DNA of 64,000 bases from Salinibacter sp. 10B. Its GTDB lineage: Bacteria; Bacteroidota; Rhodothermia; Rhodothermales; Salinibacteraceae. How positions within the stretch are numbered: the stretch's first letter is position 1; every line of letters begins with the position of its first letter. Positions 31,766 to 33,895 of this stretch are shown here, piece by piece. The DNA lies in contig NZ_MQWC01000004.1 in NCBI RefSeq assembly GCF_002954405.1, positions 4,138,790 to 4,202,789 on the forward strand. Direction: 5' to 3'. The position numbers and the translations under genes were made by a program. The notes under the pieces are model-generated. The model was not told where the DNA came from and did not search any database. It saw only the letters and a program-made list of their open reading frames with translations.

Positions 31766-32113
31766 ATGTCTGATGCACCGGTCGATAAGGAGGCTTTATT
31801 TGAGCTTGTTGATGAAGATCCGGAATTCTTGAAGCGCCTCATCAAGACCTTTCTGGACGACTGTTCGGTCTACATGGAGGGGATTCGAGAGGCAATAGAG
31901 ACTGAAGACGCCGATTCTTTGACGAGAGAGGCACATGGATTGAAAGGAGCTGTGTCAAATCTTCAGGCCGAGCCTGCTCAAGAGGCGGCCCGCCGCCTGG
32001 AAGAGATTGGACGGTCGGACACCCTTGAAAAGGCTCCAGGCGCTCTGCAGGACTTGGAGGAGGAAATTCAGCGGCTCCGATCTGTGCTGAAGGCGTATAC
32101 AGACGAACTGTGA
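31766..32113 (+). CDS. Hpt (histidine phosphotransfer) domain protein
   Basis: A 115-residue single-domain protein. REAHGLKGAVSNLQAEPAQE contains the phospho-accepting His57 in the standard HxLKGxxxxL context, inside a four-helix bundle (LFELVDEDPEFLKRLIKTFL, then the His helix, then ARRLEEIGR and a C-terminal coil). Such proteins relay phosphate between hybrid kinases and response regulators. No kinase or regulator is adjacent, so the partners are elsewhere. A short hairpin (CCCGATC/GATCGGG, 32127-32144) follows without a T run. Confidence 0.85.
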   Translation: MSDAPVDKEALFELVDEDPEFLKRLIKTFLDDCSVYMEGIREAIETEDADSLTREAHGLKGAVSNLQAEPAQEAARRLEEIGRSDTLEKAPGALQDLEEEIQRLRSVLKAYTDEL

Positions 32114-32422
32114 TACTGGAGGAATACCCGATCTCAGGATCGGGAAGGACAACCGCTCTGTGTTGGGTTGTTTTGTACACCTGGAGAGTTAAGTGGTAGT
32201 TCTGTTACTCTATGGAGATTGAGTGGGTGGTATTTTCCGGTTGGAAATCGAGGGCGGTGGGGCGAGAGATACGACAGGCGCATTGCTGCAAATCGTGAAG
32301 GTCTACCGACGAAAGGCCGCCCTGTCTCTCAAGTCCAAGAGCGCTCCACACCCGTTCGACATATCGGAAGGGGAACCCGTGCGTTTATTCTAGACCTCTG
32401 TCCGGTCATCTCATGATTTCTT

Positions 32423-32690
32423 AGAGCAACGTCAGGTGCTGACATCTGCCGGGGCGATATCGCATGAGTCCCGTGGGGTCAGGGAGCCTGCACCGAGAGG
32501 AACGGGACCGTAAACCCACGACAAGAGGGACGTGGCGAGGTGACACCTCCGACCGAGGCTTCTAACGACCGCGCTCAGATAGCCTAAGCAAATGTGAACG
32601 CCCTCGTCGGCATAATACCGCATCCGGCAACATTATTCAGTACGAGAAAGGCATCCGAAGCATCATTGGCCTCCAGCATCACTTCGGATT
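32423..32690 (+). other. structured non-coding block, possible group II intron domain I fragment
   Basis: No protein-like frame. The block is dense in short perfect inverted repeats: GTCAG/CTGAC (32431-32443), GTCCCGT (32468-32474) with ACGGGAC (32502-32508), GAGGTG-A-CACCTC (32537-32549), and TCCGAAG (32654-32660) with CTTCGGA (32682-32688). The segment GATAGCCTAAGC (from 32578) contains CCTAAG, the tetraloop-receptor half typical of group II intron domain I. No reverse transcriptase or domain V/VI hairpin is found, so an intact intron is excluded. A 5' fragment or another structured RNA is possible. The strand assignment is tentative. The flanks 32145-32420 and 32700-32818 show nothing recognisable. 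Confidence 0.35.
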
Positions 32691-32818
32691 GAGTTTCCAT
32701 CTCCGAACGATGCTGAAGGAGTTGGTATCCCCTGGTGGATCCTAATTGCAGACGGCAGGAATTGGGAGATCCCGTTGCGCCATTGGCGATATTTTTTCCG
32801 TCCAGTTGAGCAAGTTCA

Positions 32819-33895
32819 CTAGGACTGGGGGGGGGCTTCGTCGTCGAAGTGATCGAATCCGCCCGGCTGCAGGGGGACGTTTTCGCCGTCGGCTCGTTGA
32901 ATCAGAACAGGATGCTCCGGGTCGTCCGGCTCCACGATGTCGCCGATGACCGTGTACGACTGCGGATCGGCTGCGTCCAGCTCGTCCTCTGGAATCGTAA
33001 AGACCAGCTCGTAGTCCTCGCCGCCGAAGAGGGCGTAGATGCTCACGTCTTCGCCAAAGTCAGTGGCGGTGTTCCGGGTTTCCGGGTCAATGGGGAGAGC
33101 CGGTTCGTACAACTGTGCGCCGACCTCGCTGGCCTCGCAAACGTGATGCACCTCAGAGGCAAGGCCGTCGGAGATATCGATGAGCGCATGCGGCTTAATA
33201 CCGGCGTCGGCCCAGTCGCGCACAGTTTTGAGCTGGGCGGGAGGGGCGAGATGACGTCGAATCACGTACGAGAACGGATCCAGGTTGGGCTGGAAGTCCT
33301 CTCCCTGCTCCTCCATGCGTTGACGGTTACGCACCAGTGCCTTCAGGCCCGCGTAGGATGCGCCAATGTCGCCGGTTACGCATAGCTTATCGCCGACCTT
33401 GGCGCCGCTGCGATAAACGACATCGTCTTCCTGGGCCTCGCCCACTACGGTGACGGAGAGCGACAGCGCGTGTGCACTGACCGTGTCGCCCCCCACCACG
33501 GTGACATCGTAGGCATCGCAGGCTTCTTTTACGCCCTCGTAGATGGTTTCCACCATCTCGACCGACACCTGCTGGGAGAGGCCAAGCGTGACAGTAGCGT
33601 ATCGCGGCTCCGCGTTCATAGCGGCAATGTCGCTCACGTTCACCGACATCGCCTTAAAGCCGAGGTGCTCCATTGGCATGAAGGCACGGTCGAAGTGAAT
33701 GCCTTCCGTGAGCGCATCCGTAGTGAGCAGGTGTACCCGGTCGTCACCCACGCGGTAAACAGCAGTGTCGTCTCCAATACCGGAGACGAGACTGTCGTCG
33801 GACGCGTGGCCGAGCGTGTCGCGCATGAGGGCGATGAGACCGAACTCGCCAATGTTGGCAATGTCGGTTTGCTGCGGGGCGTTTGGGGCTTCCAT
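32819..33895 (-). CDS. thiL: thiamine-monophosphate kinase
   Basis: A 358-residue enzyme of the PurM/ThiL/SelD superfamily that makes thiamine pyrophosphate from thiamine monophosphate and ATP. GEFGLIALMRDTLG is the standard beginning. SGIGDDTAVYRVGDD binds ATP-Mg. LTTDALTEGIHFDRAFM, AMSVNVSDIAAMNAEPRYAT and VVGGDTVSAHALSLSVTVVG follow in order. ALIDISDGLASEVHHVCEAS and LFGGEDYELVFTIP complete the family set. It is downstream of anmK on the same strand (129 bp), probably in one transcription unit. Confidence 0.95.
   Translation of the reverse strand: MEAPNAPQQTDIANIGEFGLIALMRDTLGHASDDSLVSGIGDDTAVYRVGDDRVHLLTTDALTEGIHFDRAFMPMEHLGFKAMSVNVSDIAAMNAEPRYATVTLGLSQQVSVEMVETIYEGVKEACDAYDVTVVGGDTVSAHALSLSVTVVGEAQEDDVVYRSGAKVGDKLCVTGDIGASYAGLKALVRNRQRMEEQGEDFQPNLDPFSYVIRRHLAPPAQLKTVRDWADAGIKPHALIDISDGLASEVHHVCEASEVGAQLYEPALPIDPETRNTATDFGEDVSIYALFGGEDYELVFTIPEDELDAADPQSYTVIGDIVEPDDPEHPVLIQRADGENVPLQPGGFDHFDDEAPPQS

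Follow-up and report, generated by a model that had tools for sequence, protein, structure and literature searches.

The HPt-thiL intergenic gap

The window analyzed here, a 64-kb stretch of DNA, corresponds to positions 4138790-4202789 of contig C4 in the 4.75-Mb genome of a halophilic bacterium. Near its middle, a gap of 705 nt lies between two convergent genes, so that the gene-free region of about 700 bp described in the first-pass annotation is real. The features of the locus, in window coordinates, are as follows.

31766-32113, + strand: left neighbor, gene for an HPt-domain phosphotransfer protein (PF01627, E 1.6e-16)
32114-32818, unstranded: genome-specific gap of 705 nt, from the HPt gene to thiL (convergent pair)
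32468-32520, unstranded: two overlapping inverted repeats attributed to chance (the next two entries)
32468 and 32502 (arm positions), unstranded: inverted repeat GTCCCGT/ACGGGAC, within a chance-level count
32472 and 32515 (arm positions), unstranded: inverted repeat CGTGGG/CCCACG, overlapping the GTCCCGT repeat, within a chance-level count
32537-32549 (arms at 32537 and 32544), unstranded: inverted repeat GAGGTG-A-CACCTC, within a chance-level count
32583-32588, + strand: isolated word CCTAAG, with no TATGG partner
32615-32731, + strand: Repeat A, a decayed palindromic repeat of about 117 nt (sister copy 75% identical; matched by model R2)
32653-32689 (arms at 32653 and 32682), unstranded: inverted repeat ATCCGAAG/CTTCGGAT, the worn core of Repeat A
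32657-32685, unstranded: degenerate core palindrome of Repeat A, forming the 32653-32689 hairpin
32738-32822, + strand: decayed right half of a miniature inverted-repeat transposable element (MITE), ending in CACTAG (matched by model R3 and by blastn to the G008 MITE)
32819-33895, - strand: right neighbor, thiL, thiamine-phosphate kinase (TIGR01379, E 8.1e-91)

The spacing between the two genes was compared within a genus group of 13 genomes, leaving aside G008, where HPt and thiL are found in different contexts, and G006, which has no HPt match. Nine of the ten congener loci have gaps of 101, 23, 23, 4, 24, 164, 8, 46, and 4 nt; at the tenth (L027) the spacing was computed as an overlap (-173). 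With 705 nt here against 4-164 nt at those nine loci, the length of the gap is lineage-specific, which makes a conserved RNA of old standing here less likely.

Six-frame translation of the gap matched no Pfam family, and comparison of the gap with plasmids and phages yielded no match. Its left part (32114-32614) folds ordinarily, matched no protein family, and has no relative above background in either the source genome or other genomes. Across 32050-32900, no terminator-like site was found and no promoter-like site was found on the + strand.

Inverted repeats, folding, and searches for an intron or RNA

Perfect inverted repeats with arms of at least 6 nt and loops of 0-60 nt were counted in region 32423-32690. 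Four were present, together with CCTAAG, as the first-pass annotation had noted, but its view that they exceed chance expectation did not survive comparison with background: at least four inverted repeats were reached in 120 of 500 dinucleotide-preserving shuffles and in 221 of 476 half-overlapping 268-nt tiles from the same window. When loops were limited to 3-60 nt, the region contained three, where the tiles averaged 3.3. The GTCCCGT, CGTGGG, and GAGGTG repeats and CCTAAG all lie outside Repeat A and are at chance level. The copy of CCTAAG at 32583 is the only one on the + strand in the 64 kb; composition predicts 0.07 occurrences in the region, for a six-letter word that was chosen post hoc.

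Folding energies were expressed as z-scores. Segment 32400-32740 gave z 0.00 on the + strand and -1.25 on the - strand, so the proposed folding check returned an ordinary energy; the exact region 32423-32690 gave -1.41 (+) and -0.43 (-). One stretch stood out (z -3.15), the - strand of 32594-32713, most of which falls within Repeat A; in a background of 96 pieces, the minimum z was -3.67 and 6.25% of pieces had z ≤ -2.

In a group II intron, the CCTAAG of the 11-nt receptor pairs with TATGG. The proposal that CCTAAG at 32583 marks such a receptor in domain I, and that the region is thus an intron remnant, draws on the uniqueness of this word on the + strand of the window, but TATGG is absent from 32423-32818 and the inverted repeats occur at chance density. 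Rfam searches reported no family at gathering score in the whole window and, with E values up to 10 admitted, no group II intron family in 32050-32900, where the only hits were a sub-threshold CRISPR repeat and a chance miRNA match. Pfam found no intron-encoded reverse transcriptase in the six frames of the gap, and the neighboring HPt and thiL genes, when tested, belonged to other families; the earlier statement that domain V and an intron-encoded protein are missing agrees with these Rfam and Pfam results. The probability of an intron remnant is accordingly close to nil. An undescribed structured RNA gene in 32423-32614, the other identity suggested earlier, would suit a gap that is long and particular to the source genome, and the z of -1.41 on the + strand of the exact region leans in its direction. 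We nonetheless consider it highly improbable, as the larger segment folds at z 0.00, the + strand lacks a promoter-like site, covariation between the two closest repeat copies (described below) does not rise above control, and the sequence (32468-32520 included) has no relative in the source genome and none above background among 99 other genomes.

Further identities were tried and rejected. The CRISPR repeat match (RF01357) scored 24.2 bits where 35 are required, and the 29-nt stretch occurs at only two places in the genome (≤ 3 mismatches) with no regular array. Frame 32632-32694 resembles the C-terminus of an M20 peptidase, but at E 1.3, and an intact gene, 92% identical, is located elsewhere in the genome. 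An origin from a mobile plasmid or phage was set aside given that the gap is unmatched in plasmids and phages and the Repeat A core has no exact match in viral contigs.

Repeat A and the dispersed palindromic family

The only good relative of the gap in the source genome is a sister copy at C4:1283988-1284105 (- strand), which is 75% identical to 32615-32731 (E 7.7e-14). By alignment, 32615-32731 is clearly homologous to this copy, which carries the core of a dispersed family. The sister core (C4:1284034-1284062) is within three mismatches of the family core, for which the consensus is GTAGCGyCGTTGGAnTCCAACGrCGCTAC. The window core has eight mismatches to the fixed consensus letters, exceeding the limit of three used for counting, and so is not among the 47 core places of the source genome. 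It keeps 8 of 13 pairs; of the five that are broken, four now read C-A or A-C. The strongest hairpin of the region (32653-32689) is this worn core.

A covariance model (R1) was built from the window and sister copies, and a second model (R2) from 12 other copies without the window copy. R2 scored the sister copy at 63 bits and matched one place in the 64-kb window, at 32610-32728 on the + strand (E 2e-6) and 32615-32731 on the - strand (E 3.4e-6), values that are flattered because 11 of the 12 copies came from matches to R1, which holds the window copy. Direct blastn of the window copy against family members except the sister was weak (best E 4e-4, and 0.03 in another search). Each of the two copies folds into a long, irregular hairpin: on the same sense, z was -1.38 for the window and -3.67 for the sister, and the opposite strands gave z -2.73 and -2.93, respectively; for the - strand of Repeat A in the window, none of 200 shuffles folded as well. 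The covariation count between the two copies was reached by 112 of 500 and 342 of 500 control simulations, and a conserved RNA structure in Repeat A was rejected as a candidate on these numbers.

Searching the 13 genus genomes with the core pattern (≤ 3 mismatches) returned 47 places in the source genome, 58 in G008, 7 in G009, 6 in G011, 1 in G012, and none in the other eight; a reversed control pattern returned none in all 13. R1 had matches in five of the 13 genomes (42 in the source genome, 68 in G008, then 9, 3, and 1), counts in which palindromes may be included on both strands. G008 appears to be the Salinivenus metagenome-assembled genome (MAG) JAHENZ; Salinivenus belongs to the Salinibacteraceae, within the Rhodothermota. 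In the genome collection, 32 stretches contain the exact core, of which 28 are from the Salinivenus MAG, one from Salinivenus iranica, two from Bacteroidetes bacterium SW_9_63_38, and one from a Bacteroidia MAG. This last core (L169, 2685-2713) lies outside the genus between short G-rich arms, and could be convergent or transferred.

Of 12 loci tested, 10 have the core outside any ORF of at least 150 aa. Part of the copies share an outer end, CGGAGTTGGTAT, at about 43 nt from the core: across 60 distinct places (≤ 2 mismatches), both outer ends were present in one, a single end in 14, and neither in 45. An integron attC site had been suggested by the palindrome, but the outer ends do not seem to fit the core-site consensus. 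The 47 cores of the source genome were observed in several arm contexts, for example with arms starting acagaggatattgacc, acaagggcatccatcac, and tggtgccctccttgacgg, a pattern that would fit an exchange of halves at this point. Among 12 family copies, one of the 13 pairs shows two-sided change (C-G to T-A, in 5 of 12 copies); over 60 distinct cores this pair was C-G in 42, T-A in 16, and T-G in 2. Subfamily descent accounts for the change as well as selection does.

The MITE relic and the origin of the gap

Alignment to copies elsewhere clearly shows segment 32738-32822 to be a homolog of the right half of a MITE, an element bounded by terminal inverted repeats. A sequence model built without the window copy (R3) had a single match in the 64-kb window, at 32738-32822 (E 1.3e-10), and blastn of this segment to the G008 MITE gave E 1.7e-5. 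The full element is about 160-176 nt with inverted ends (174-176 nt in G008) and is abundant in G008 (L051, L054, L057, L058, and L061, among others), which has 46 matches genome-wide, many of them to the ends only. Both ends, CTAGTG..CTTGCACAACT and CACTAG, were present in five of seven long G008 copies tested, and these five carry CTAG on either side, in keeping with a TA duplication. Another copy in the source genome is located at C4:473294-473372. The right end alone was found in the window, with no left end, and no parent transposase was recognized by eye in the flanks examined. At G008 locus L048, end matches at 2529-2562 and 2677-2701 suggest a MITE between anmK and thiL, near the position of the window relic. 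The stop codon of thiL (CTA, 32819-32821) is within the terminal CACTAG of the relic (32817-32822), so the protein may owe its current C-terminus to the insertion.

Very probably, the gap owes its length in this lineage to the insertion of small mobile repeats, non-coding and by now decayed. Repeat A and the MITE would have entered the space separating HPt from thiL by transposition in trans and, having lost their pairing through point mutation, would now be inert; the other 500 nt may be debris of earlier insertions or spacer that has expanded. Of the hairpins, one would then be a worn repeat core and the others chance palindromes. What is seen is ordinary, decayed repeat DNA with chance hairpins next to it, and no transcript or function is implied. 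Of the new element proposed for region 32423-32690, what stands is that its right edge overlaps a decayed dispersed repeat; the remaining hairpins are at chance level.

The sister copy adjoins a DPH6-like/radical-SAM gene pair, and 12 congener loci for this site had no significant match to either Repeat A copy (best E 0.046). At the G008 site, which is without the sister copy, alignable flank restarts just past one edge of the repeat, and on the other side the alignment is too poor for a precise empty site. A target-site duplication was established for neither Repeat A nor the MITE relic.

Alternatively, Repeat A could act as a hairpin between convergent genes, as a bidirectional transcription stop or a stabilizer of mRNA 3' ends, in which case it would be kept rather than decaying. 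Its position between two such genes, its - strand fold that no shuffle equaled, and the good fold of the sister copy speak for such a role. However, its core is down by 5 of 13 pairs, covariation is at control level, terminator-like sites are lacking over 32050-32900, and the sister copy is upstream of a gene instead of between convergent ends, and we regard this role as improbable. Against insertion and decay, in turn, stand the - strand folds of 32594-32713 and of Repeat A alone, the flattered R2 values and weak direct blastn, the missing left end of the MITE, the lack of an established target-site duplication, and a left part (32114-32614) with no recognized origin. With insertion and decay as the preferred reading, the result disposes of a false candidate for an intron or RNA and accounts for part of an unusually long gap. 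The palindromic family, with a shared core, exchangeable arms, and no detectable RAYT, is a modest by-product and the only item of some interest; it could help to trace the activity that mobilizes REP-like palindromes in the Rhodothermota.

Comparison with known mobile repeats

The family of 32738-32822 resembles MITEs in its terminal inverted repeats, flanking CTAG, and many end matches in G008, and the window copy differs in keeping the right half only. Repeat A invites comparison with repetitive extragenic palindromes (REP/REPIN; PMC3116915, PMC3686654). Its symmetric core (GTAG...CTAC) sits between variable arms of considerable length, whereas a REPIN is two REPs around a spacer. Matches to PF01797 (Y1_Tnp, RAYT) are present in 6 of the 13 genus genomes, but the source genome has none despite its 47 cores, and a RAYT-driven REPIN is therefore not shown. 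Loss of a RAYT is described in PMC3686654, and it is possible that a former RAYT was lost from the source genome.

It is also conceivable, though we hold it only tentatively, that the Repeat A family represents an undescribed kind of long palindromic element in the Salinivenus lineage, with one conserved hairpin core, several alternative arms, and some 50 copies in the genome of each of two species; since one of these species is without a Y1 transposase, the mover would be an unidentified activity. Among the titles listed for Salinibacter, Salinivenus, and Rhodothermales, none points to this family. Like REPs, which according to PMC3686654 have a conserved GTAG or GTGG tetranucleotide and a palindrome, the Repeat A family is dispersed, palindromic, and present in many copies, and its core opens with GTAG followed by the palindrome; the description of a dispersed extragenic palindrome with a GTAG-type tetranucleotide applies to it.
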